Translations under genes and position numbers: made by a program
The notes under the pieces: generated by a model
What the model was told of the DNA's origin: nothing
Databases searched by the model: none
The model's input: only the letters and a program-made list of their open reading frames with translations
Source of the DNA: a virus
DNA length: 34,862 nt
IMG/VR virus record: IMGVR_UViG_3300006802_000264
Span: 1 to 34,862 of that record
Reading direction: 5' to 3' (one strand)
Shown here: in pieces, positions 677 through 34,862 of the stretch
Position numbering within the stretch: position 1 is the first letter of the stretch
Layout of the letters: every line of letters begins with the position of its first letter

Positions 677-913
677 ATGGAAGAAAACATACAGAAATGG
701 ATCAACACTTGTGCTCAATTGCAAATTGCTTTGAGCGACACCTTTTCTCAGATGAAGTCTGAAATGACACAAGTGCAAAAGCAAATTGTCAGCCAAAGAC
801 AAGACATTGAAAGCGAGATTAAGTGTTTAAAAGCTGAGATCGAAAAGCTTAAAGAGTCCTCGCAGGTCCAAGTTACTAACGGCAAAGACTTAGAGCCTCA
901 AATTAGTGCATGA
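677..913 (+). CDS. Small coiled-coil protein
   Basis: A 78-residue protein predicted to be almost wholly coiled coil from its heptad-like pattern (FSQMKSEMTQVQKQIVSQ, then SEIKCLKAEIEKLKES). I chose ATG 677 over an in-frame ATG at 650 because an AAGGGG ribosome-binding site at 665-670 lies 6 nt upstream, whereas 650 would overlap the previous gene without a site. It ends in an ATGA overlap with the following membrane protein. Together with the next two genes it forms a cluster of tiny helical and membrane proteins. The function is unknown. Confidence 0.6.
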   Translation: MEENIQKWINTCAQLQIALSDTFSQMKSEMTQVQKQIVSQRQDIESEIKCLKAEIEKLKESSQVQVTNGKDLEPQISA

Positions 914-1203
914 CTGAAGAGCAAGAGCGGGAAAGGCATCAATTTAAGATCACGACTATCACAGTCTTTCTAGGGTTTGTTTGCCAGCTCATGGCATCGG
1001 CTTGGTTTTTAGCATCGCTTTCTGAAAGGCAAGCGCAAACTCATTCCGTACTGCAAGGGGTCGTTGCGGAGCAAAAGCTGCGATCTAGTAATGTTTATGC
1101 GGTTGAGAATTTAAAAACTGAAATTCGGTGGTGCATTGATGAGGTCAAAGAAATGCGTCAGCGCTTAAGAGGTCTAGAGATGGGACATAATGGACAACGT
1201 TAG
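910..1203 (+). CDS. Membrane-anchored coiled-coil protein (spanin- or holin-like topology)
   Basis: A 97-residue protein with a charged N-terminus (about residues 1-13), one hydrophobic membrane segment (about 16-38, ITVFLGFVCQLMASAWFLA) and a charged helical C-terminal region likely to form a coiled coil (about 60-95). One membrane anchor followed by a coiled coil is the topology of inner-membrane spanins and of several small phage inner-membrane proteins. No matching outer-membrane lipoprotein is nested in it, so spanin is only a possibility. It starts in an ATGA overlap with the gene before it. Confidence 0.55.
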   Translation: MTEEQERERHQFKITTITVFLGFVCQLMASAWFLASLSERQAQTHSVLQGVVAEQKLRSSNVYAVENLKTEIRWCIDEVKEMRQRLRGLEMGHNGQR

Positions 1204-5648: not shown

Positions 5649-6211
5649 AAAAGCTAGTTTTATTTTTAGCCTGTCTTGGCTTTCCCAGCTTGGCTTTGGC
5701 ACAAACTACAGAGAACGACTTGATCGGCTTGGGTATGCCTTCAGCTTTGGCCGAAGCTCTTACCTCGGGCCTTTCTGCCGACTCGGATCTTACTCTCACG
5801 GCTGCCGGGGATGATGTTATTATCACGGCTGAGGATGACGTAGTTATTCAGGGTGAAGGCTCGGGAGATGTCATCACCCTAGCTGGTGGAGGAACTGCTG
5901 TAGATCTAACCATTGCGGATAACTTGGTTACGGTAGCCTCTGGCACGTCACTAACGATGACATCCGGCACTTTCACCATTACGGCAGGAGATGCGGTGCT
6001 GACATCTGGAGATCTTACGATAACAGCTGGCGGGATCAATATCGCCGCTTCTCAAGATCTCAACTGGGTTGAACAAGATTCGGCTAACCAGGCTTGTAAT
6101 ACTACCTGTACTCTAGGCTGCGTTATCGGACTAGAGGCGTCTACCCCGGCCTTCGTGGACTGTGCCGATGCAACAGCAGACTCTTGTGTCTGTGCTAGTG
6201 CAGGAAGCTAA
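5645..6211 (+). CDS. Exported beta-repeat protein with Cys-rich C-terminus
   Basis: A 188-residue protein with a clear Sec signal peptide (MKKLVLFLACLGFPSLALAQ, cleavage expected after ALA-Q). The middle (about 45-140) is made of short repeated beta strands such as LTLTAAGDDVIITAEDDVVI, TMTSGTFTITAGDAVLTSG and DLTITAGGINIAAS, typical of beta-roll or adhesin-like proteins. The last 40 residues carry seven Cys, which fits folding in the periplasm or outside. It overlaps its neighbours (ATGA before, TAATG after). An exported protein inside a head-gene run is unusual; a surface or adhesin role is inferred. Confidence 0.6.
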   Translation: MKKLVLFLACLGFPSLALAQTTENDLIGLGMPSALAEALTSGLSADSDLTLTAAGDDVIITAEDDVVIQGEGSGDVITLAGGGTAVDLTIADNLVTVASGTSLTMTSGTFTITAGDAVLTSGDLTITAGGINIAASQDLNWVEQDSANQACNTTCTLGCVIGLEASTPAFVDCADATADSCVCASAGS

Positions 6212-6441
6212 TGAGGGTTGCAGTTTTCGCATTAGCAGGGTTTTTCGCGGGGCTCCTTTTCTACGCTTTGGGAGATGCGCACTTTCATAAAGTGGCAAGA
6301 GAGGAGCTTAAACTTTCAAATCAAGAGGTTGCAGGCTGGCTTAATGCACACAAATCGAGAGACAAAAGAGACGCAGCAATCAGGGAAGAGATGAACAAGA
6401 TCCTAGATAAGCTAAAGAACATCAAGGGTGATTCTAAATGA
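6211..6441 (+). CDS. Small membrane protein with charged helical tail
   Basis: A 76-residue protein with one N-terminal hydrophobic segment (about residues 3-20, VAVFALAGFFAGLLFYALG) followed by a long charged helix (SRDKRDAAIREEMNKILDKL). The topology resembles a small signal-anchor protein with a coiled coil on the other side of the membrane. It overlaps the exported beta-repeat protein and the following structural gene by a few bases. A spanin-like or pore-associated role is possible but unproven. Confidence 0.5.
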   Translation: MRVAVFALAGFFAGLLFYALGDAHFHKVAREELKLSNQEVAGWLNAHKSRDKRDAAIREEMNKILDKLKNIKGDSK

Positions 6442-9011: not shown

Positions 9012-9481
9012 TGTACGGATATCAACAGAAAGGAATGCTAGCGGGAATGCAACCGCCTCAACAACTTGGCAGGGCGGTGGCTCCAGTTTCGCAAGGCCGC
9101 CCCAGCTTTGCCGGGTCTGCTGCCCAGCCACCATTTCAGCAGCAGCCACCACAGGGCCAGGGAATGGGGCTCCCGCCTGGGATTACCCCGCAACGATTGC
9201 GCCAGTATGCAATGCAAGGCCGCCCGGAATATAACCGTGTGCAAAACTATCTTGAACAACGCCGAAGCGGTGGCGCACCACAGCCTGGGCCAACCCCAGC
9301 AGATGTGGCCTTTGATCAGGCCTCTCAAAGGGCTGCTTTCCAAAGAGCCCCACAGCAGCCAATGAATGCGCAACCTATGAACGCGCAACCTCAGCAGCGC
9401 CGCATGGCTCCAGGCAGGCACGCAATGCAGCGGGGAATTCGTAGAAATAGACGAGTTATGAACGAGCGAACGGGATACTAA
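9011..9481 (+). CDS. Gln/Pro-rich basic virion-module protein
   Basis: A 156-residue low-complexity protein: Gln, Pro and Gly rich through most of its length, with QPMNAQPMNAQP repeats near residue 120 and a strongly basic Arg/Met-rich tail. It holds a third ADVAFDQA motif at 9299-9322. It starts at TAATG, overlapping the upstream gene, and is itself followed by a TAATG overlap. An unstructured linker or DNA-contacting virion component is likely; I do not recognise a family. Confidence 0.5.
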   Translation: MYGYQQKGMLAGMQPPQQLGRAVAPVSQGRPSFAGSAAQPPFQQQPPQGQGMGLPPGITPQRLRQYAMQGRPEYNRVQNYLEQRRSGGAPQPGPTPADVAFDQASQRAAFQRAPQQPMNAQPMNAQPQQRRMAPGRHAMQRGIRRNRRVMNERTGY

Positions 9482-10068
9482 TGATCGATCCAAGGATACA
9501 AGCTCAGGCAGAGAGTGAGGCTTTTGTAAGCGCGGCTAACTATAAGATGGATCCTAGTCTGCAGGGATATCAGCCAAACATGCTACAGCGCGCTGATCTG
9601 TCGGGTATGCAAAGGCAAGGCCCGTCGGATCTAGCGCAAGGCATAGGGGCTGCAATGCAGCAAAATGGGAACCCGCTTGCCCCCCCTCAGTCTCCAGGTG
9701 CTCCAGGGCAACCGGGAGAAGAGGCGGTAACTAAAAGCAACGTGCTGTGGAAGCCTGTATCGGAGAAGGGAGGCCTTGCGGTTTTATTCCCTTACAAAGC
9801 GGGCCAAGTGGTGATCAAGGATGCAAAAACGGGGGAGATTTTGGATCGTGGTGTTAGCTCTGGAGCTTCTAACGGGTATGCTGATACTGTGCGCTTTTCT
9901 CGGCCTGGCACTGCTTTTAACGATGTGATCATCGAAGATTCGAGCGGCAAGCAGATGTATGTGCGCAATGGTGGCATGCGCAATGAAAACCTAGCCGCAA
10001 GCGCTAAGCCTGCAGGCCCTATGGGGCTAGGGCAGCCAAAAGATCCATTTTTGCTAGAAGGGTTATAG
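9481..10068 (+). CDS. Virion-module protein with an LWKP domain
   Basis: A 195-residue protein. An N-terminal helical and Gln/Pro-rich part (about 1-80) is followed by a compact beta domain at about 88-165 that opens with NVLWKPVSEKGGLAVLFPYK and contains GASNGYADTVRFSRPG. The same domain occurs in the exported protein at 17098-17769, so the genome carries two divergent copies. It seems to be a small beta-sandwich module that I have no function for; surface or carbohydrate binding would fit. It starts at TAATG and precedes the gp10-like gene. Confidence 0.55.
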   Translation: MIDPRIQAQAESEAFVSAANYKMDPSLQGYQPNMLQRADLSGMQRQGPSDLAQGIGAAMQQNGNPLAPPQSPGAPGQPGEEAVTKSNVLWKPVSEKGGLAVLFPYKAGQVVIKDAKTGEILDRGVSSGASNGYADTVRFSRPGTAFNDVIIEDSSGKQMYVRNGGMRNENLAASAKPAGPMGLGQPKDPFLLEGL

Positions 10069-14064: not shown

Positions 14065-16641
14065 ATGGCAACGAGCGAAGAACTACTAGAGCAAGGCTAT
14101 ACAATAGCCGCCCCTGCGTCCGATCCAGGCCCAACGCCCGAGCCTACAACCGAAGTCTCCACTGTTTTAAATACAGACAACTTGCTTGCTCAAGGCTACA
14201 CCATTGCCGAGCCTCAATCTTTACCCGGTAAATACGGACGATCTTTAGCAAAGGGGGGAGCGGATCTTTGGGGAATGATAATGCAAGCAGCTTTGCCAGT
14301 GCCCCCTTCTGCAGGCGGTGGCCCATTGCCTCTCTTGCAAAGAATGGCGGGGCAGGAAACGCCCGAGCTTGTAATGGAGAAAGTGAACAAGGCAAGAGAG
14401 GAGGTTGTTTCAGATCCTCAATACGAAACCAAAACAGGAAGAGTTTTAGGGGCAACGGTTGAAGCGCTTCCTACGGCTGTTATTCCAGGCGGTGGCGGCT
14501 GGTTGGCAAGGCTTGCAACGGCTGCAAGTGGGGGGGCTGGGGGACAAATCGCTGAAGAGTTTGGGCAAAACCCCTTGCTAGGCTCTCTTGCGGGCACTTC
14601 TATCTATGGTTTGGCTCGAGGCGGTACGGGAGCTTTGTTTAAGTCTTTTACCAAACAAGGCCGAGAGGAAATTGCTGGACGTACTTTGCGCCAAGCTGCT
14701 GGCAAAGAGGGGACAAAGAACCTTTTAACAGCAAATGTAGACGATTTGGCAAGTGGATATGTAGACAAAGCCGGACGACCGATTTCTAAAACCTTTGCTG
14801 AAATTGCAAAAACTCCTGGTGCAGCCAAGTTGCAAAAGGCAATCGGGTTAGAGATGGGGGACGAAGGCGGGCAAGTGCTTGATGCTTTAGCCGCACGAGC
14901 TGCGGCCAGGGATAAAAGCTTAGACGATTTAGCTGACGACTTGCTGAAGTTACACCCAACTGATCGAGGGCAAAAACTAAGAGGCCTTTTGGTCGAAGCC
15001 CAAGAGCAAGCTGACGAAGTGGTTAGCCAAGCTTGGGACCCTGTGCGATTAACTGATATTCGATTTGATACGGAGGGTGCTGCTAAAGAGATCGCAAAAG
15101 AAGCCACTCGAGCCGGTAAGGTTGTCCCTCTTAGCGCTAATGCTAATCGAGTCTTAGCCGCTATTGACGAGGGAGCAGGAACGCTTAGCACTGAAGATTA
15201 CCAAGCAATTAGATCCGCAGCCGGTCGAGTCTGGAGCCTGGCAGATCGTTCCGGCGATTCTGTCGAGGCTCGAATAATGGGGATCGTCCGAGAGAAACTA
15301 GACGATGCAGCTATAAAAGCCGCAGAACAAGGAAATATCGACAGTCAGAATTTGACAAATTTACGCAACGCGATTGGAGCCACGCGAAAATATAAAGAGG
15401 TGTTCGATGAGGGGTTTATAGGACAGACGCTTCGAACTCGAAAAGGCGAGTTTCGAAAAGGAACGGCGCAGGTAGCCAGAGGGGCCACAGCAACAAAAGA
15501 AGCAGCCGAAGAGGTTGTAACTAAGTTTGGCGCAGATGAAGAAATCGTAAAGCAAGGCCGCTCAGCCCTGGTAGAAGAGCTAGCATATAAAAAGTCCCCA
15601 TCTGCAAAGCTAAAATTACTACAAGACAAAGAGCCTCAATTTAAAGCCTATTTTGACAAGGACTACCCCAAGGTTGAAAAGTTTATAAAGGACTTAGACT
15701 CCGAGGTTGAGATCGACCGACTTAATCAGGCGGCTACTGGAGGACAATCTATAACCGGCCAATATAAAACCTCTGCCGATTTTCTCAAAAACGTTTCAAT
15801 AGGGGTTAAGACTCTAAAGGCGGCGGGAAAAATGGCTTCGGGCGCTGGTGGCGTTGGCGGTTATGCTGCCTTCGGCCCTGCCGGGGGGCTTTTATCGGCG
15901 GTAGTTGGAGGAGTTGCGGGAAGCAAGCTCCAGGCCCTTGCTCAAATGCAAGAGGGGCAAATCAAAGAGCTTTTAGTCTCTGCTATGGCTGAGCCTGCAA
16001 TGGCAAAGCTTTTAATGCAGGCTCCAACTGAAAGCACTATAACCGCAATTCTAAAAGCATTGCCAATAGGTGGGACAATAGGAGCAAAGGGAGAAATTAA
16101 CGATGCGCTTTCTGCTGACAACCGAGCATCTAAAAAGGCTTCTGAAAACCGCCCGACAAGCATTTTTGACATTCAAAAAAAAACTAAAGCCCAAGGGCCA
16201 GCGAACGCGGATCCAGTAGACGATCTTGCTTTTATTAGAAAGCATGAGGGTCTGCGCTTAAAGCCTTACAAGGACACTGGCGGCGTAAAAACTATCGGCT
16301 ATGGGCACACGGGGGAAGGGGTCAAAAAGGTTTCGATCACAAAAGACGAGGCCGAAAAGCTTTTGAAAAAAGACACTGAGACAGCCAGAAAGGCCATAGA
16401 TCAATATGTTGATGTGAAGCTTACACCTGAGCAACGAGCGGCGCTCACGTCTTTTGTGTTTAACGTAGGCGCTGGGAATTTCCGTAATTCTACTTTGCTC
16501 AAAAAGCTAAATAAGGGCGATTACAAGGGTGCCGCAAAAGAGTTTCATCGTTGGAAATACGATAATGGCAAAGAGCTGGCCGGGCTTGTAAAGCGCCGCA
16601 AAGAAGAAGCCGAGCTATTCTCTCGATCCTTTAAGGTCTAA
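14065..16641 (+). CDS. Large ejection-type protein with C-terminal GH24 lysozyme domain
   Basis: An 858-residue protein. The N-terminus carries a repeated LLxQGYTIAxP unit (residues about 7 and 41). A long helical body follows with hydrophobic Gly-rich segments near 590-625 that could enter a membrane. Residues about 715-855 are a complete GH24 (T4-type) lysozyme: E728 in KHEGLRLKPY, D737 in KDTGG and T743 in KTIGYGHT have exactly the 9- and 6-residue spacings of T4 E11, D20 and T26. A later FNVGAGNFRNSTLLKKLN block matches the family. It probably opens peptidoglycan during DNA entry, possibly also at lysis. Starts 1 nt after the previous stop. Confidence 0.85.
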   Translation: MATSEELLEQGYTIAAPASDPGPTPEPTTEVSTVLNTDNLLAQGYTIAEPQSLPGKYGRSLAKGGADLWGMIMQAALPVPPSAGGGPLPLLQRMAGQETPELVMEKVNKAREEVVSDPQYETKTGRVLGATVEALPTAVIPGGGGWLARLATAASGGAGGQIAEEFGQNPLLGSLAGTSIYGLARGGTGALFKSFTKQGREEIAGRTLRQAAGKEGTKNLLTANVDDLASGYVDKAGRPISKTFAEIAKTPGAAKLQKAIGLEMGDEGGQVLDALAARAAARDKSLDDLADDLLKLHPTDRGQKLRGLLVEAQEQADEVVSQAWDPVRLTDIRFDTEGAAKEIAKEATRAGKVVPLSANANRVLAAIDEGAGTLSTEDYQAIRSAAGRVWSLADRSGDSVEARIMGIVREKLDDAAIKAAEQGNIDSQNLTNLRNAIGATRKYKEVFDEGFIGQTLRTRKGEFRKGTAQVARGATATKEAAEEVVTKFGADEEIVKQGRSALVEELAYKKSPSAKLKLLQDKEPQFKAYFDKDYPKVEKFIKDLDSEVEIDRLNQAATGGQSITGQYKTSADFLKNVSIGVKTLKAAGKMASGAGGVGGYAAFGPAGGLLSAVVGGVAGSKLQALAQMQEGQIKELLVSAMAEPAMAKLLMQAPTESTITAILKALPIGGTIGAKGEINDALSADNRASKKASENRPTSIFDIQKKTKAQGPANADPVDDLAFIRKHEGLRLKPYKDTGGVKTIGYGHTGEGVKKVSITKDEAEKLLKKDTETARKAIDQYVDVKLTPEQRAALTSFVFNVGAGNFRNSTLLKKLNKGDYKGAAKEFHRWKYDNGKELAGLVKRRKEEAELFSRSFKV

Positions 16642-16642
16642 T

Positions 16643-17110
16643 GTGGCAATTGTAGGGCTAGGCAATATTCTAAAAGACGGCTCTTTGTGGCATCGAAAAT
16701 GCGCACAGCGAATCGATATCGTCTCACGTTCCCAGCTAGTTGTAGCGAATAATCAAGACGAAACCTCTGATCATTACCTGGATTATCCAAATAACTTACC
16801 AGGCACCTCCACTCGAGGGCTTATAGCTTTTCGAGCGGGTTGGATCACGGCCCTTTCGTGCGTTTTGACAGTCTCGGTTGAGACTACCCCAGGCACGATA
16901 GATGTGGAGGCACACGTAAATGGCAGCTCCGTTTTTTCTTTCACTATTACAACCTCTGGAACTGGTGAATACACCAATCAGGTAACGCAAGGGATCGACA
17001 TTGACGCAATCGCTGCGGGGGATGTTTTAAATGTGGCTCTTGTATTTGGCACCTTTGTGGGAACTGTTAATGACACTGTAGGAGCGCTAGAGATAACATG
17101 GGCAGAATAA
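16643..17110 (+). CDS. Beta-sandwich structural protein
   Basis: A 155-residue protein starting at GTG 16643, because the ATG at 16641 is out of frame and stops at once. It is beta-rich with GTIDVEAHVNGSSVFSFTIT and VGALEITWAE segments. This resembles short fibre or surface beta-sandwich proteins, like the genes at 14, 6438 and the window's right end. It sits after the lysozyme-bearing protein and overlaps the next gene by 13 nt. A tail-tip or surface role is inferred. Confidence 0.5.
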   Translation: MAIVGLGNILKDGSLWHRKCAQRIDIVSRSQLVVANNQDETSDHYLDYPNNLPGTSTRGLIAFRAGWITALSCVLTVSVETTPGTIDVEAHVNGSSVFSFTITTSGTGEYTNQVTQGIDIDAIAAGDVLNVALVFGTFVGTVNDTVGALEITWAE

Positions 17111-17769
17111 TTATAGCTTTAGCAACTTTAGCAATCGCAACCTCGGCTGCGGCGCAGGATTACATAGCGCCCTCGAGGCTTGCTCCTAACGATCCTAATT
17201 TTAGTTGTCCAAAATATCTTGCCGCTGCTGAAAAGGTGGTCCAGGACGGGTATTTACCAGCTATCGTGATGGGATTTAGCAAGAAATCAAGGGAGTGCAT
17301 TGTTGATTTTATCAATCATTTCGCTGCCTTTCCTAAGCTTGTGAACATTCATATCAGAAAGAGCCTAGACGCAAGGCTTCCTGCAGTTCAAGATTTCATA
17401 ACTACTAATAGCGACATGACAACTGAATGGATCGTGTCTAGCTCAGCCAGCGAGATCGATCCGCCCCCTGGGCCTGACTGCACCACAGACAAGCCTTCCC
17501 AGGATGGCTCCGGGGGCTTTCTTTGGAAGCCGATATCAGAAAGCAACGGCGGATTGGTTGTAATTTTTCCAGAGGCCGAGAGTTATAGTTCGGTGCAGAT
17601 TTATTTTGGTGATAGCGTTTTAGCCGAGCTTAGCTTTGCTGGGCGCGCCAATGGAAACAGAGAGCACTGGCGAAGCAATAAACCGGGGCCATCTTTCCCA
17701 GACGGCAGTGTAGTTTTTGCCGAGGGGGTTTGCAGAACAATTAACGATACGTCTAAGAGGATCGATTAA
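17098..17769 (+). CDS. Exported protein with LWKP domain
   Basis: A 223-residue protein with a Sec signal peptide (MGRIIIALATLAIATSAAAQ). A helical part (about 30-105) is followed by a short Pro/Asp linker and a beta domain at about 140-215. That domain begins GFLWKPISESNGGLVVIFPE and contains GRANGNREHWRSNKPGPSF, matching the module in the protein at 9481-10068. It has several Cys, in keeping with a periplasmic or secreted fate. The holin-like gene starts at its stop. The function is not known; it may bind a surface component. Confidence 0.6.
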   Translation: MGRIIIALATLAIATSAAAQDYIAPSRLAPNDPNFSCPKYLAAAEKVVQDGYLPAIVMGFSKKSRECIVDFINHFAAFPKLVNIHIRKSLDARLPAVQDFITTNSDMTTEWIVSSSASEIDPPPGPDCTTDKPSQDGSGGFLWKPISESNGGLVVIFPEAESYSSVQIYFGDSVLAELSFAGRANGNREHWRSNKPGPSFPDGSVVFAEGVCRTINDTSKRID

Positions 17770-17981
17770 TGGCAAAACCAACAAAGCATATTTTTCAAAG
17801 TGTTGGCGGAATGTTCTCGCTATTTGGCACTTTTACAGCCCTTATGGCTTGGTATAAACAATTGCCGCCTGAGCTAATCAGTGACAGCCAGGCGTTTTTG
17901 ATCCTGGCCGTAAATAGCATAATTACCCTCTGGGGTCGTTGGCGTGCGCAAATGCCTCTTCGGCTTTTGCCCAAGGCTTAA
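17769..17981 (+). CDS. Holin-like two-TM protein
   Basis: A 70-residue protein with two hydrophobic segments (about 11-28, GGMFSLFGTFTALMAWY; about 41-57, AFLILAVNSIITLWGRW), a charged N-terminus and a basic C-terminus. Size and topology match small holins that make the inner-membrane pore at lysis. It is the last gene of the late plus-strand block, after the lysozyme-bearing virion protein. Its TAA overlaps the stop of the opposite-strand phospholipase-like gene in the palindrome TTAA. No family-specific motif can be claimed, so holin is probable rather than proven. Confidence 0.6.
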   Translation: MAKPTKHIFQSVGGMFSLFGTFTALMAWYKQLPPELISDSQAFLILAVNSIITLWGRWRAQMPLRLLPKA

Positions 17982-18352
17982 GTATTCCAGGCCAGCCAGC
18001 CAATAGGCGAACGGACTATGGCGTAGTAAAGGCGCGCCCTTGCCTTTGTCCCTTTGCCTTGCTCGATGCAGCGCTCCATGCACTGTTTAAATTCATCATC
18101 TACCTGTTTGCGCGTTTTGGTCTGCAAGCCTAGCTCCTCTTTTACGTACTCAATGTCGTGACAGATACAGCACAGCCGAAAAGGATCCGAGCAGCCTGTA
18201 TTAAACGGACCCCAGCCGCACACTAAATCAGAGTCGCACTGTGTAGTCTCGATTAAGCCCAGAATGTAGTCCGGCAGCTCCTCGAGATAGTGGTTCTCAT
18301 GCCAGACGCGCACCATGCGCCTTAGCTTTTTATGCCCTTTATTAGAGAGCAT
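17978..18352 (-). CDS. Phospholipase A2-like protein
   Basis: A 124-residue Cys-rich protein. Residues 45-69 hold a Ca-loop-like stretch CGWGPFNTGCSD followed by FRLCCICHDIEY, the CCxxHDxxY hallmark of the PLA2 superfamily with H65-D66 as the catalytic dyad and Y69. The downstream KQVDDEFKQCM helix and a C-terminal ARLYYAIVRSPIGW segment match PLA2-like proteins found in other phages. Such enzymes hydrolyse the sn-2 ester of phospholipids. I see no signal peptide. Its ATG overlaps the lipoprotein stop (TAATG), so the two are coupled. Activity is inferred. Confidence 0.65.
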   Translation of the reverse strand: MLSNKGHKKLRRMVRVWHENHYLEELPDYILGLIETTQCDSDLVCGWGPFNTGCSDPFRLCCICHDIEYVKEELGLQTKTRKQVDDEFKQCMERCIEQGKGTKARARLYYAIVRSPIGWLAWNT

Positions 18353-18525
18353 TACACCTCATCACAGACCACAACAGGATCCCCAAACACATCCTCGCTG
18401 TCATAGCATACGAAGCTATCTGTTGAGCCGGTTGGATTTCCGTTTATGTCATAGCCGGGCGCTTCGTCAAAATCGCCACACCCGGCTAGGGCTAGTAATA
18501 GGCTAATAACTATAAGCTTCTTCAT
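18352..18525 (-). CDS. Small lipoprotein (57 aa)
   Basis: A short frame encoding a lipoprotein: MKKLIVISLLLALAGC, with lipobox L-A-G-C and a cysteine that would be lipidated, followed by a 40-residue acidic tail (CGDFDEAPGYDINGNP and two further Cys). Its start lies inside the last 23 nt of the protease gene, and its stop overlaps the start of the phospholipase-like gene. A coupled lipoprotein between a secreted protease and a PLA2-like protein suggests an envelope-targeted cassette. By size alone it could also be a stand-alone outer-membrane spanin-like protein, although no partner is recognised. Confidence 0.7.
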   Translation of the reverse strand: MKKLIVISLLLALAGCGDFDEAPGYDINGNPTGSTDSFVCYDSEDVFGDPVVVCDEV

Positions 18526-19936
18526 CACTCATTTTTGGACAATATTTATCTTTGCATTGTTTACGGCAACGACGCTGCCGCTGATATTGGCATTTAAGAT
18601 CGGAGCGGCACTTGTTAATGCACTGATCCACTTTGTTTGGCTGACACGTTGGTGGCGGTGTGGGTGTGGGCAGAGGTGTGGGGGTAGGGGTTGGCCCAGC
18701 CTCGGCATGGAGTGCGCCGTAAAGATCTAGACGCCTTCCGCCTTTAATATAAGCTCCCAGAGAGTGAATAACCTTAGCTCCTTTCGCCAATTTTAGAATC
18801 ACCTGCTCAGGAGTAAGACTTGGATCTTGCGCTAGGATTAAAGCTGCAGCGCCCGACACATGAGGGGTGCTCATGGATGTGCCTGACATTGTATAAGTGT
18901 GCTCTTCAGTTTGCCCCAAAGATTTTATGTTTACCCCTGGAGCCATAATATCAACCGATTGCTGGCCGTAGTTTGAAAAGGTAGCAAGCCCGTCTCCTTC
19001 ATCCGATGCGCCAACGCTCATTATATTCGACACCTCATACCCTTGCGGATAGTATGGCACTACATCGGTGTTGGTTGAGTAGTTCCCGGCGGCTGCAATA
19101 AAGACAGCACCGGCGTCTTTGGCGCGCTCAATAGATTCTTTTAGCGCTTCGCTATAGCCGCCTCCTCCCCAGGAGTTCGACAGCACTCGTGCTTCGTTAG
19201 CTACAGCCCAATCGATGCATTTAATCGCGTTAACCGTTGAACCACCCGAAGCTGAGAGAAAGCGACATCCTAGCAGCTGGCATTGCCAAGTAACGCCAAC
19301 AACTTTGTCTGCATTATCGCCCGCAGCGCAAAGCGTGCCCGAAACGTGCGTTCCATGCCCATGGGAATCGCGAATGGCAAAAATTCCCGTGCTGCCATCA
19401 ATTGCATTGTAGCCATCGATTAAAGAGCCTGAAAGCTCGGGCCAAGCGTTTACCCCAGTATCAATTACAGCTACCCGAATGGCTCCAGACGATTGAATCT
19501 CGTCCCACGCTTTAGGGGCTCTTATTTTCTGCATACCCCAAAGCTGCGGCCAGGCGGGATCGTTTGGCGTAGTGTCTTGTAGCTCCCAAACCCAATTGGG
19601 CTCGCAATCGTCAAGGGATTCTTGCTTGCATAAATCTTTATCAGAATCATAAGGTACTATTTCGGCTTCGGTGCCTGCGCTTGCTGGTTGATCGCCACGA
19701 ATAACCGACCAACCATGCCCGACAGGAGATACAAGATAAGTTTGCGATCCTACCTGCTCTTGGCACTCGCCTTTATCCCCACACCAAGCTTCAGCGCTTT
19801 GGCTTTTTATCAGGTATTGATCTTTGTATACCTTTAAGCCAGCAGAGGGTGTAATAGACGGTGCACGTGACAAGGAAGGTGAGCAAGACGACACACACAA
19901 CGACCAAAAGGCTAAAATAATAACTTTCCATTTCAT
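18503..19936 (-). CDS. Subtilisin-like (S8) lipoprotein serine protease
   Basis: A 477-residue protein. The N-terminus has a hydrophobic segment and a VSSC lipobox (C18), then a propeptide-like region to about 120. The S8 domain follows with all catalytic elements: D159 (VAVIDTGV), H194 (HGHGTHVSGT), oxyanion N285 (AAAGN) and S354 (GTSMSTPHVSGAAAL). A Thr/Pro linker (about 415-429) leads to a basic, Cys-rich tail with eight Cys in about 36 residues. The product would be exported and anchored in the envelope. An intact S8 protease is rare in phages; it may attack envelope or competitor proteins or mature virion proteins. Confidence 0.93.
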   Translation of the reverse strand: MKWKVIILAFWSLCVSSCSPSLSRAPSITPSAGLKVYKDQYLIKSQSAEAWCGDKGECQEQVGSQTYLVSPVGHGWSVIRGDQPASAGTEAEIVPYDSDKDLCKQESLDDCEPNWVWELQDTTPNDPAWPQLWGMQKIRAPKAWDEIQSSGAIRVAVIDTGVNAWPELSGSLIDGYNAIDGSTGIFAIRDSHGHGTHVSGTLCAAGDNADKVVGVTWQCQLLGCRFLSASGGSTVNAIKCIDWAVANEARVLSNSWGGGGYSEALKESIERAKDAGAVFIAAAGNYSTNTDVVPYYPQGYEVSNIMSVGASDEGDGLATFSNYGQQSVDIMAPGVNIKSLGQTEEHTYTMSGTSMSTPHVSGAAALILAQDPSLTPEQVILKLAKGAKVIHSLGAYIKGGRRLDLYGALHAEAGPTPTPTPLPTPTPPPTCQPNKVDQCINKCRSDLKCQYQRQRRCRKQCKDKYCPKMSDEEAYSY

Positions 19937-20224
19937 ATCATTCCTCTAGTTTCGGCTCTAAAATTGGCGCTTCTCGATTATCTGTTCGCACGTGTTCGCA
20001 TCAGCCAGGGGAAGAGAGTGTACTCGCAGCTCGGGCGGTTTACCCAGACTACTAGCTAGACAGTCTACGGTGCGTCCTGCGAGACTATTTGGAAGCAACT
20101 CCAGACAGTCACTGGTTTCTAAGCCAGCACTTAACCGCCAAGGCGCAACCCTTGGCCGACTACATTCCCGCAACATGTTCTTCTGTCTGCGCCTACACAT
20201 TCTCTTCCTCTGGCTCATGCATGA
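19937..20224 (-). other. 288-bp gap, possibly decayed early gene
   Basis: No convincing gene. The minus strand has a 72-86 residue open frame (19958-20218, ATG 20218 or 20173) without a ribosome-binding site. Another frame reads as acidic pieces (MHEPEEENV, then AQTEEHVAGM) broken by stops, like the Glu-rich small genes next to it. It follows a seven-residue copy of the recurring MSEEL leader. A decayed early gene is the best reading. No tRNA could be folded. Confidence 0.35.
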
Positions 20225-20248
20225 TCACGGCTTCAGTTCCTCACTCAT
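20225..20248 (-). CDS. Micro-ORF of the MSEEL leader type (7 codons)
   Basis: Encodes MSEELKP. Its ATG overlaps the TGA of the SLOG gene. The DNA (GTGAGTGATGAGTGAGGAAC) is nearly identical to that at 22867 and to the start of the gene at 21300, so this is one copy of a repeated gene-boundary sequence. Here it leads into the gene-free gap, so it may be the stump of a lost gene. Confidence 0.4.
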   Translation of the reverse strand: MSEELKP

Positions 20249-23249: not shown

Positions 23250-23912
23250 TTAAAGCGCTTGCAACCTATATTTCTGGCCGCGAATCTCTACCACTTCACC
23301 GTCACAGCTTTCCTTTTTCGAAACTTCGATCCCTGTAATCTCTTTAAAAATCGCAGCGTCAAAATTCGGAAGGTTCATGATTCGCTTGCGATCTTCGTCG
23401 TCGGTATCACGCCAGTAGTTAGCCCAAGCCTCTTGCCACTCGAAAGTCTTGAGATACCCGCCTCGGATATGAAATGTAGATTGAACAGCCTTCTCTTCGT
23501 CAGTCATTTGCGATTCGGGTATCCATTTGGTTAGCCGAAACTCATTAAAGCGCGGATGATCAATCTCTTCCCATTGAGCTTCGGCGGGCTTGTTAAAAAG
23601 ATATAGCTTTGGCCGCTCGGTGCAAAAAATGCCCGATGATCGATTACAGGAGTTACCGTAGCCCGTATTGTAATGGCCCGAATTGTAATTGCCCGTATTG
23701 TAATGGCCCGAATTGTAATTGCCCGAATTGCGATTGCCCGAATTGCAATAGCCCGAATTGTAATCGCCCGAATTGTAATTGCCCGAATTGTAATCGCCCG
23801 AATTGCAATTGCCCGAATTGTAATCGCCCGAATTGTAATCGCCCGAATTGCGATAGCCCGAATTGTAATCGCCCGAATTGCGATAGCCCGAATTGGTTTT
23901 ATTTTTTGTCAT
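23250..23912 (-). CDS. Pentapeptide-repeat protein with conserved C-terminal domain
   Basis: A 220-residue protein. ATG 23912 (MTKNKT) is preferred over an in-frame start at 23951 because an AAGGGAG site precedes it. About 16 repeats of NSGxY-type pentapeptides (residues 7-88) would form a right-handed beta-helix-like rod. The following 130 residues (LYLFNKPAEAQWEEIDHP, LTKWIPESQMTDEEKA, RIMNLPNFDAAIFKEITGI) match a tail domain seen on phage pentapeptide-repeat proteins. Some pentapeptide proteins mimic DNA and bind gyrase, but the N-S-G type is different and its role is unknown. Confidence 0.8.
   Translation of the reverse strand: MTKNKTNSGYRNSGDYNSGYRNSGDYNSGDYNSGNCNSGDYNSGNYNSGDYNSGYCNSGNRNSGNYNSGHYNTGNYNSGHYNTGYGNSCNRSSGIFCTERPKLYLFNKPAEAQWEEIDHPRFNEFRLTKWIPESQMTDEEKAVQSTFHIRGGYLKTFEWQEAWANYWRDTDDEDRKRIMNLPNFDAAIFKEITGIEVSKKESCDGEVVEIRGQKYRLQAL
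23655..23894. repeat. 15-bp tandem repeats encoding NSG pentapeptides
   Basis: About 16 head-to-tail 15-bp units, plus-strand consensus CCCGAATTGTAATNG, inside the gene at 23250-23912. The units are nearly identical at DNA level (unit changes mainly TAAT/CAAT/CGAT), so copy number can vary by slippage. It is not a CRISPR: there are no spacers and the frame is kept. Confidence 0.9.
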
Positions 23913-23919
23913 GGCCTGA

Positions 23920-23955
23920 CTACTCCCTTGATTCGATAAACAAATTCTCACTCAT
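23920..23955 (-). CDS. Micro-ORF MSENLFIESRE, leader type
   Basis: Eleven codons starting in an ATGA overlap with the gene before it. Its last codons contain the AAGGGAG site for the pentapeptide-repeat gene, so reading it would bring ribosomes to that start. It is a variant of the MSEEL leader. Confidence 0.4.
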   Translation of the reverse strand: MSENLFIESRE

Positions 23956-25953: not shown

Positions 25954-28062
25954 ATGCTTAATCGAGAATCGGATCAGGCTGAGCATATCGCTAAAGCCTT
26001 AGGGAAAGCTGCGCGCTCAGGCAAGGGCTGGACGTGTCTTTGCCCATGCCACAAAGACAAGGCCCCATCGTTGAGTGTGAGCAACGACGGGGACACCTTG
26101 TTAATGTTCTGCCATGCCGGATGCGCCTTCGAAGACATCGTCACAAAGCTAAGAGAACGCGGGATTTTACCGGCGCAGGACACCTTACAACATTGCCGGG
26201 GGGTACGCACTAATATTCCACGACACTTGATAGCCGAAAGCCATTTGGCAGAAGCCACCAGAGAAAAAGATTACCCGAAGGCAAAAATAGGCGAAACTTA
26301 CACCTACACAGACAAGAACGGGAATCTGATCTGGCAAAAAGCACGCAGACCAGGGAAGGAGTTTCGGTGCCGAAAGCCTAGCCCAGATGGGGAAAGCTGG
26401 CTTTATAAGGATCTTTTCCCAGACGGAGGCCCTGACCCGCTGTATAGGCTCCCCAGGGTGGCCTGGGCGATAGAAACCGAGACGGCGGTATTTTTGGTCG
26501 AAGGGGAAAAGGATGTCCATACAGCCGAATCCTTGGGCCTGGTGGCAACCACAGCAAGGCATAGCTCAAGCTTTAAGCCCGAGTGGGCCGAGCAGCTGCG
26601 CGGGGCACACGTGGTTATTATCCCAGATAATGATAAGCCCGGGCGAACCTACGCCGAAAAGGCAGCCGTTGAACTTGCTAAAACTGCTAAAAGCCTACGG
26701 GTGCTAGACCTGCCAGAGCTAGGAGAGAAAGAAGATCTTACGGACTGGATCGAAAAACGCGGGGGCTGCGTAGAGCTTTTGGTAGATTTCGCCCTAGATG
26801 CCCCTGACTTGCTCGAGGAAGAAGAAATAGAGGAAGAGGACACAGGAGGGGAGAAAGGAAAGAAGAAGCCCAAGGCGAGGCAATACGAGGCTTATAAAGA
26901 GCTTTTCGAAGAGGTCTTAGGGGAGATTAGGCGCGACATTTTCACAGGCGAGCTTGTGCACGAAGTGCATGGACGTTGGGAGATGTGTAGGGGGCTGATA
27001 TCATTAGGAGTCTTGAAAAGCGCCGCGCTAGATAAAGCAGGATTTAGCGCGGCTCGAGTAGAGCCTCACCTCATGAGGCTAACGAGAGAAACCCCTCGAG
27101 AACTTCTAGCCAATATCCCAGAGTGGGACGGGGGCCAACGCCTGGCGCAGATTGCACAATGCGTCTCATGCCAGAATCTCGAGCCTCAGCACGTCGAAGA
27201 ATTGTTAAAGGACTGGGGTTCAAGAGTTTTCGAACGAATTTATAACCCCATGCAGACAAACCGATGTTTGATTCTCAAAGGCCCCCAGCGAATTGGCAAG
27301 GATTGGTTAATTACTCAAATGTTCCAAGCACTTAAGGAATGGAAAATCCCCTTTACATTCAACACGTATCAAGAGAAAGACAATCTGGAGCAAATCTCAG
27401 CCGGGGCAATAATGCACTTAGAGGAGTTCGACCGAACCTATAAATCCTCGGACGTTGCGGCAATAAAGCACATGATCACAGCTACTTCGGTGCGCTATAG
27501 GCCGTCACATGGGAAGTTGGCCGAAACTCGAGACGTAAGAAGCTCCTGGGTTGCTACCTGTAATGTGGATGGGATCTTGCGAGACCCTAGCGGGTCAGAG
27601 CGGTTTATAATATTTGATGTTAAGTCAATAGATTGGGGCTATCCGCAAGGCGAGAGCGAGCAGATCCTAGCTGAGCTGAAAGCCCTGGCACAAACTAAAT
27701 ATAGAGCCAGCGAGGCTGCTGAGGCAGCTCTGGATCGTTACCTAGAGACCCATACTCCCGAGGACCCAGACGATGCACTGTGTGAGCTTTTCGAGGTTGA
27801 GTGGAGGGCACAGGCGGGTACGCTGCCTTATTGGAGAGACACAACCTTAAGACGCTCAAGTGAGATGCAGCCAATTTGGGAAGCGCTAGGGAAGGCCACA
27901 AAGAGGGCCCCCCAGACAATAAAACACGTTTTGAAACAGAGAGGGTATGGCGGCAGGATGAGAGGAGGGATCGTCTATGGGGGGGTCCCAAGCGCATGGC
28001 AGGAGGAGCCCGAAGAGGAGGAGGGAGACACCGAATTTGAGGATGAAAAATGGAACATCTGA
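25954..28062 (+). CDS. Primase-helicase: Zn-finger, TOPRIM and VirE-type ATPase
   Basis: A 702-residue multidomain replication protein. Residues 28-57 form a CHC2-like zinc finger (TCLCPCH..., MFCHAGC). A TOPRIM domain follows at about 177-268, with E183 in LVEGEKD and D225/D227 in IIPDNDKPG. An acidic linker (about 285-305) leads to a VirE-type helicase domain (about 385-640). Its Walker A is GPQRIGKDW (K449), with Asp replacing the usual Ser/Thr, and its Walker B is MHLEEFDRT. It starts replication by making primers and unwinding DNA. It lies directly before the iteron region, as expected for an initiator. Confidence 0.88.
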   Translation: MLNRESDQAEHIAKALGKAARSGKGWTCLCPCHKDKAPSLSVSNDGDTLLMFCHAGCAFEDIVTKLRERGILPAQDTLQHCRGVRTNIPRHLIAESHLAEATREKDYPKAKIGETYTYTDKNGNLIWQKARRPGKEFRCRKPSPDGESWLYKDLFPDGGPDPLYRLPRVAWAIETETAVFLVEGEKDVHTAESLGLVATTARHSSSFKPEWAEQLRGAHVVIIPDNDKPGRTYAEKAAVELAKTAKSLRVLDLPELGEKEDLTDWIEKRGGCVELLVDFALDAPDLLEEEEIEEEDTGGEKGKKKPKARQYEAYKELFEEVLGEIRRDIFTGELVHEVHGRWEMCRGLISLGVLKSAALDKAGFSAARVEPHLMRLTRETPRELLANIPEWDGGQRLAQIAQCVSCQNLEPQHVEELLKDWGSRVFERIYNPMQTNRCLILKGPQRIGKDWLITQMFQALKEWKIPFTFNTYQEKDNLEQISAGAIMHLEEFDRTYKSSDVAAIKHMITATSVRYRPSHGKLAETRDVRSSWVATCNVDGILRDPSGSERFIIFDVKSIDWGYPQGESEQILAELKALAQTKYRASEAAEAALDRYLETHTPEDPDDALCELFEVEWRAQAGTLPYWRDTTLRRSSEMQPIWEALGKATKRAPQTIKHVLKQRGYGGRMRGGIVYGGVPSAWQEEPEEEEGDTEFEDEKWNI

Positions 28063-34007: not shown

Positions 34008-34862
34008 ATGGCGCTAGTTGAATCAAAGCAGCAAGTCGATAACCGGGTATCGCCTCGATATTTTGTCAAAGTTTATTACGATGATTCCGACGCTTCTTTC
34101 CCGCAAGTTCAAGCGTTTTTGCAGCTTGATGACACGGGAACCCCTGTAGGATCTTCAAATCCTTTGCCTGTTTCTATAATTTCCGGCGGCGGCGGCGGGA
34201 CTCAGTACGACGAAGGAGATACGGCGGCCACTATAACTGGCACAGCTGCCATGATGGAGGTTGCAGCTGACGCCCTAGCTCCTATTCAAGGTACGGTAGC
34301 TGACGGTCTTTTGGTGAATCTTGGCACCAATAACGATGTTACCCTTGCAACTTTACCTGACACAGCCTCTGGTGATTTAGCAGCTATTGCTGCGGTAGAT
34401 TTTGCAACCGAGACTACTCTTGGAACCTTACTAACCGGGTCCACATTTTCAGCGGTCGACTTTGCCCTTGAATCTGGCGGCAATCTTGATACTATTGCAG
34501 GTGATACCACTTCAACTGATGGTAAGATTACCGCGTGTAATACAGGTGCTGTAGTAGTATCATCATCGGCTCTACCTTCTGGAGCTGCAACGGCGGCAAA
34601 CCAAACAACTCTTATAGCTCGATTACCTGCCGTTGCTACCGCTGCTGATAACGTCACAAACCCTTCGATTTCCAAAATCGGCTCTTATCTTTTCGGCTTT
34701 GATGGCACTACCTGGGACAGGCTCAGAGGCGATTCAACTAATGGGCTATTAGTTAATCTTGGCGCTAATAACGACGTTACCCTAGCTACATTGCCAGATA
34801 CTTCGGGCGGTGATCTTGCAGCAATAAACTCGGCACTTTCTGGAACGCTAACAATAGCTGGC
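34008..34862 (+). CDS. Structural beta-repeat (adhesin-like) protein, open at the right edge
   Basis: Starts at the ATG that directly follows the portal stop and stays open for 285 codons to the end of the window, so the C-terminus is missing. The first 50 residues are charged; the rest is Thr/Ala/Leu/Asp-rich with beta-type repeats. LFGFDGTTWDRLRGDSTNGL near 230-250 is a motif common in phage surface or decoration proteins. The LLVNLG(T/A)NNDVTLATLP unit occurs twice. If the genome is circular, the frame would run to a TAG at about 49-51 of the window, but no terminal overlap proves that. Confidence 0.6.
   Translation, partial: MALVESKQQVDNRVSPRYFVKVYYDDSDASFPQVQAFLQLDDTGTPVGSSNPLPVSIISGGGGGTQYDEGDTAATITGTAAMMEVAADALAPIQGTVADGLLVNLGTNNDVTLATLPDTASGDLAAIAAVDFATETTLGTLLTGSTFSAVDFALESGGNLDTIAGDTTSTDGKITACNTGAVVVSSSALPSGAATAANQTTLIARLPAVATAADNVTNPSISKIGSYLFGFDGTTWDRLRGDSTNGLLVNLGANNDVTLATLPDTSGGDLAAINSALSGTLTIAG
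34308..34826 (+). repeat. Two 81-bp direct repeats inside the right-hand gene
   Basis: 34308-34388 and 34746-34826 encode near-identical units (LLVNLG(T/A)NNDVTLATLP, then DT(A/S)(S/G)GDLAAI), 438 bp apart. The repeat is in frame and is a likely cause of the assembly ending shortly after the second copy. Confidence 0.75.

Follow-up and report, generated by a model that had tools for sequence, protein, structure and literature searches.

A survey of 677 phage genomes found no recognizable spanin in about 13% of them and left it as an open question how the spanin-less phages pass the outer membrane; 31 genomes in that survey had a lipoprotein without a linked i-spanin, and o- and i-spanin genes lying apart from each other were stated to be beyond its detection (PMC6139136). 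Phospholipases A2 (PLA2s) of phages are known from streptococci, where prophages carry them as virulence factors, and for phage WO a lytic cassette of a phospholipase (patatin) and a holin has been put forward (PMC9203015).

We examined a locus within a 34,862 bp record from a podovirus-like phage whose portal and terminase are of Mx8 type; the whole of this record is referred to below as the window. Three overlapping genes, for an S8-type protease with a lipobox, a small lipoprotein and a PLA2-like protein, meet a holin-like gene there. Enzymatic accessories to lysis are known; judged from the sequences, a PLA2 and an exported protease beside a holin would be a new combination, and a search of the open-access literature found no description of an enzyme of PLA2 fold and an exported protease together next to a holin. 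Signal-less PLA2 homologues beside holins, along with exported proteases that belong to two unrelated classes, are candidate genes for spanin-less passage, and the finding suggests a role for phrog_6098, a phage family listed without a known function.

Layout of the locus and its genome context

The preliminary description had placed three overlapping genes on the minus strand, tail-to-tail with a holin-like gene, and all three open reading frames were confirmed. The S8 protease with lipobox (477 aa; 18503..19936, minus strand) was assigned by Pfam, PDB match and catalytic motifs. The 57-aa lipoprotein (18352..18525, minus strand), with the lipobox LAGC, has its ATG at 18525, 23 nt within the protease 3' end, and the PLA2-like protein without signal peptide (124 aa; 17978..18352, minus strand) starts on the lipoprotein stop, the A of its ATG at 18352 being common to the lipoprotein TAA (TAATG). 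Ribosome sites were seen for the PLA2-like gene (GAGG) and for the protease (AGAGGA); the lipoprotein has no clear one, and for this reason we only infer its translational coupling. The late operon ends with the holin-like gene (17769..17981, plus strand), which has a 4-bp overlap with the PLA2-like gene.

The late genes point rightward, starting with the terminase, crossing the record ends and finishing with the holin-like gene, whose end is at 17981. The leftward genes run from about 25.1 kb, and the last three are those for the S8 protease, the lipoprotein and the PLA2-like protein, which share direction with the leftward early genes and not with the late operon. Both record ends (34008-34862; 2-463) lie inside open frames just after the portal, so that the genome is probably nearly complete; since these frames are open, and the final part of the record (34008-34862) has internal repeats TLATLPDTASGDLAAI, one fibre-like gene has probably been split by an assembly break. 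No integrase was recognized among the window ORFs read. The only peptidoglycan hydrolase recognized in the window is the C-terminal GH24 phage lysozyme domain (E-x8-D-x5-T) of an 858-aa virion/ejection-type protein (14065..16641, plus strand).

Two further proteins of the late operon, 7 kb apart (17098-17769 and 9481-10068), have a similar C-terminal 'LWKP.S...GGLxVxFP' domain. A structured RNA was considered for the 311-nt gap upstream of the protease (19937-20247), which has no convincing gene and a folding z of -3.2 versus shuffles; the idea was dropped because nearby stretches reached a similar z and there was no match in the relatives or in Rfam.

Protease, lipoprotein and phospholipase A2-like protein

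By sequence, the protease is a member of the S8 subtilase family, and a complete one with lipobox (VSSC), as first described. It matched PF00082 over residues 153-379 (E 2.5e-50), its best PDB match was Deseasin MCP-01 (E 1.3e-53), and the catalytic motifs VIDTGV, HGHGTH, AAAGN and GTSMSTPH, with the D-H-S triad, are all intact. Residues 20-125 form an N-terminal region of propeptide type, and on the C-terminal side a Pro/Thr linker is followed by a Cys-rich tail. Single-sequence searches of phage, viral and genome contigs returned no close relative of the protease, but distant S8 domains only; identity as an anti-phage IetS-type subtilase was tried and rejected, with weak matches only.

Both predicted lipoproteins (MKWKVIILAFWSLCVSSC, MKKLIVISLLLALAGC) have a basic n-region, a hydrophobic stretch and a lipobox Cys. 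The mature part of the smaller one is 42 aa long and acidic, with 3 Cys (including the lipid-bearing Cys) and 3 Pro; its PHROG matches, to Cor exclusion proteins and to spanins, were weak and confined to the signal peptide.

The motif series of the PLA2-like protein is GWGP...CCxxHDxxY...DDxFxxC...YYAIVR. Alone, the window protein matched PF09056 at E 0.0022 (below the Pfam cut-off), phrog_6098 at 7e-6 and the PDB PLA2s at E 0.07-0.17. Homology became firm with profile A6, prepared from the window protein with L105, L099/L102 and L094 (four phage homologues, later joined by that of the relative G058), which matched 4aup (1.8e-7), 8k1w (3.4e-7), 7ygk (4.5e-6) and 1faz (3.4e-4); all five PDB sequences obtained at E up to 10 were PLA2s, the fifth being crotoxin at 0.67. 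In the alignment, His65, Asp66, Tyr69, Asp85, Phe88 and Tyr110 are invariant in 5/5 homologues; the CC of CCxxHD is missing from the G058 homologue, and the window protein has no obvious counterpart of the Ca2+-ligand Asp that usually follows CSxxP. On these profile matches the window protein is a true PLA2 homologue of the group XIII/XIV superfamily, for which lipolytic activity is predicted. The CGWG loop of animal/bee-venom PLA2s had served as a lead to kinship with these enzymes, which was rejected, the profile search indicating group XIII/XIV.

The Cys/HD/Asp motif is not chance: among 31,568 six-frame ORFs (first 182 loci), it retrieved the PLA2-like proteins and, beyond these, a single ORF of no relation. 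A stricter WG...CCxxHDxxY scan found no homologue; a looser motif scan found true homologues in L094, L099 and L102, a repeat scan with two of the PLA2-like homologues returned L105 again and nothing else, and a single-sequence search of phage, viral and genome contigs for PLA2-like relatives returned nothing. A Rhizobium phage match (H72, E 2) was judged to be a chance match. The structure model had a pLDDT of 49 at first (unusable) and of 63 with four sequences; at this low confidence the best VIA-align match was the secreted PLA2 7ygk (70 residues, rmsd 3.5, with a Z of 5.4 that is below the safe range), and Foldseek versus PDB and BFVD gave no significant match (E above 1). The L099, L094 and G058 proteins also matched phrog_1158 ('tail assembly chaperone'), with E down to 1.4e-7, and gave a weak DUF1353 match; phrog_1158 may be misannotated, and DUF1353 may represent a divergent family of PLA2-like proteins.

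Recurrence of the gene pairing in relatives

Relatives were collected by profile searches with portal and terminase, giving about 160 viral loci. Those closest by terminase were 46-58% identical, the long ones being G002 (35.0 kb), G058 (25.5 kb) and G060 (28.0 kb). G058 is the relative with the most similar MCP found (MCP 81%, portal 51% identical to the window); G059 has the same identities, and its sequence ends before the region of interest. The window protein is called only holin-like, since it has two segments of moderate hydrophobicity and none of its family matches was convincing; small membrane proteins similar to it occupy the same place in G002 and G058.

The expectation that the three-gene cassette would be conserved in relatives was not upheld, the exact trio occurring in no other record searched and an S8 protease being absent from 100/100 related viral records. 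Co-occurrence held in a looser form, in that a PLA2-like gene, an exported protease and a holin-like gene recur together in G058, where the protease is an unrelated one. At its 3' end, the late operon of G058 encodes, in order, a transglycosylase-type ejection protein, a membrane/coiled-coil protein, a 348-aa protein, a holin-like protein, the PLA2-like protein and an exported metzincin, the last two genes overlapping. An exported metzincin (HELGH and Met-turn) is also present in G002, where no PLA2-like gene was found; two genes after the metzincin is an LpxR lipid-A 3'-O-deacylase (L087, 18518-19321; PF09982, E 6.9e-34). In G060 the exported metzincin is encoded on the strand opposite the late genes, and two genes further along comes that of an 82-aa lipoprotein. 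All three metzincins share sequence similarity and are related; their Pfam matches were below the cut-off for G058 and G060, and the G002 protein, with no Pfam match, was assigned by motif and similarity. A predicted exported protease is therefore found in 4/4 long genomes of the clade, and the metzincin of the sister phages where the window has S8 suggests that the protease part is exchangeable. A scan of 2.17 Mb of other DNA, mostly of more distant phages, for such proteases gave one spurious-looking match.

Among the related records, G052 alone matched PF09056, and matches to the family profile were confined to G052 and G058. The other homologues were L105 (from G052), L094 (from G101) and L099/L102 (two Mu-like contigs with identical proteins). 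G101, a phage that is not part of the clade, has its PLA2-like gene in a late cassette, flanked by the genes of a Hydrolase_2 endolysin and of a holin (match to Phage_holin_10 at E 0.0017, below the cut-off), the second of which it overlaps. In G052 it is upstream of VRR-NUC and terminase genes, and in the Mu-like G102/G103 it is not beside a holin, lying between gemA and later genes (G102). Three of the five genomic settings thus have the PLA2-like gene in contact with a holin-like gene or immediately next to one; the other two, G052 and the Mu-like G102/G103, mean that the gene is not tied to lysis everywhere. The recurring pairing, a pattern seen post hoc in few genomes, speaks for a role in envelope disruption (lysis) rather than for chance cargo.

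Two other features were observed in these genomes. The C-terminal hydrolase of the ejection protein is swapped, being GH24 in the window (14065-16641) and transglycosylase-type in G002 (L087, 5752-7848) and G058 (6751-3188); and short tandem amino-acid repeats occur in the window (23250-23951; NSG/NYNSG), G002 (L087, 16275-17787; GYG) and G060 (27489-28001; QLxS).

Possible roles and comparison with known systems

The reading that we tentatively prefer, at somewhat short of an even chance, is that the trio is an accessory envelope-disruption module which joins the holin in ending the infection. Both the protease and the lipoprotein would be exported and lipidated, their +2 residues S and G pointing to outer-membrane sorting; the protease would mature from its propeptide and cut envelope proteins, its presumed targets, from the periplasmic side. 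The signal-less PLA2-like protein would accumulate in the cytosol, inactive because Ca2+ is low there and its cysteines are reduced; opening of the inner membrane by the holin could let it escape like an endolysin, meet Ca2+ and cut membrane phospholipids. Together with peptidoglycan hydrolysis, the outer membrane would be weakened and the cell might then burst, beside or instead of the action of spanins. We favour a lysis or outer-membrane-disruption module because of the many Cys, the expected need for Ca2+, the lack of a signal peptide and the holin neighbours, and because an exported, exchangeable protease fits a general attack on envelope proteins.

The envelope-attack or lysis role first proposed for the locus is thus supported in part. 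On its side are the S8 lipoprotease, the true PLA2 homologue, the consecutive holin-like, PLA2-like and metzincin genes in the late operon of G058, and the endolysin/PLA2-like/holin order in G101; the LpxR of G002, a second envelope-lipid enzyme near a metzincin, supports an envelope role. The strongest objection is the direction of transcription, the trio following the early strand and the protease being opposite the late genes in the window and in G060; other objections are that the PLA2-like protein lacks a signal peptide, that the phage may have a split spanin pair, that G002 is without a PLA2-like gene and that the G058 homologue is without the CC.

The early-strand position in the window, and likewise that of the G060 metzincin, would be explained if the protease and lipoprotein acted early to remodel the host surface, cutting or masking receptors for superinfection exclusion or to keep progeny off debris, with the PLA2-like protein as a separate passenger. 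The G002 metzincin paired with LpxR, which would edit lipid A rather than rupture the outer membrane, and the weak, signal-peptide-only similarity of the lipoprotein to Cor exclusion proteins agree with this; but in G058 the protease and PLA2-like genes belong to the late operon and lie next to the holin-like one, and a signal-less PLA2-like protein does not fit surface editing, so that we consider surface remodelling unlikely, although deserving of some weight.

Distinctly unlikely is that the trio represents moron cargo, i.e., exported enzymes acquired at the convergent early/late junction that benefit a lysogen or hit competitors. The site resembles that of DLP12 borD, convergent to rzpD/rzoD, the trio is not conserved, and the GC3 of the PLA2-like gene is slightly raised (0.62); against this, no integrase was recognized, and exported proteases that are steady in the clade and a recurring PLA2-like/holin adjacency are unexpected for random cargo.

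The earlier statement that the phage has no recognized spanin pair proved insecure. The lipoprotein could be an o-spanin, and a 97-aa (910..1203, plus strand) and a 76-aa (6211..6441, plus strand) membrane/coiled-coil protein are possible i-spanins; these lie 12-18 kb from the lipoprotein on the other strand, and the gene overlapping the lipoprotein upstream encodes the protease, not an i-spanin. Lysis would then be canonical, with a distant i-spanin, and the enzymes would do another job. The mature lipoprotein matches lambda Rz1 in size and has two additional Cys, its weak signal-peptide matches include spanins, and the survey's 31 genomes offer a precedent (PMC6139136); still, with only 3 Pro, no linked i-spanin and an early-strand gene, such a split pair is improbable. 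Because the lipoprotein could have a distant partner, the claim that spanins are replaced is weakened: that the trio replaces them is no more than a hypothesis, and we regard spanin-independent disruption of the outer membrane by a holin-released PLA2 and an exported, exchangeable protease as doubtful, though worth considering.

That the phage family has kept the PLA2 fold and lost activity for a binding or structural part, its holin adjacency being unrelated to lipid cleavage, is very improbable: the CC lost in G058, the PHROG filing of relatives as unknown function (phrog_6098) or 'tail assembly chaperone' (phrog_1158) and the unobvious Ca2+-ligand Asp would fit, but the His, adjacent Asp and dyad Asp are invariant in 5/5 homologues.

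Among known systems, bor-type lipoprotein morons (lambda, DLP12 borD) resemble the window in having a lipoprotein gene convergent with lysis genes; they are lysogen-expressed single genes without enzymes, whereas in the window no lysogeny genes were seen. The group XIII/XIV secreted PLA2s of PF09056 (fungal and prokaryotic; 4aup, 8k1w, 7ygk, 1faz) have in common with the phage proteins the CxxHDxxY helix, a second helix that bears the dyad Asp and D..F, and a third helix A.xYYxxVR; unlike them, the phage proteins are without signal peptide, and the window member has 8 Cys, a GWGP stretch before the active site and a Ca2+ loop that aligns uncleanly. Two-component spanins (lambda Rz/Rz1, T4 PseT.3/PseT.2; PMC6139136) resemble the window in that it has a small lipoprotein near a holin-like gene and, elsewhere in the genome, membrane/coiled-coil proteins; but the window lipoprotein is on the opposite strand beside enzymes, with no linked i-spanin. 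LysB of mycobacteriophages (PMC5707550) parallels the role proposed for the PLA2-like protein, being a lipid-cleaving enzyme that breaches the outer lipid layer at lysis; set against the window by description only, it differs as an esterase acting on mycolyl-arabinogalactan in mycobacteria. The phage WO cassette (PMC9203015), like the window, has a phospholipase beside a holin-like gene and is proposed to act in lysis; its patatin is an unrelated Ser-Asp lipase, it includes no protease, and its host is one without detected peptidoglycan.
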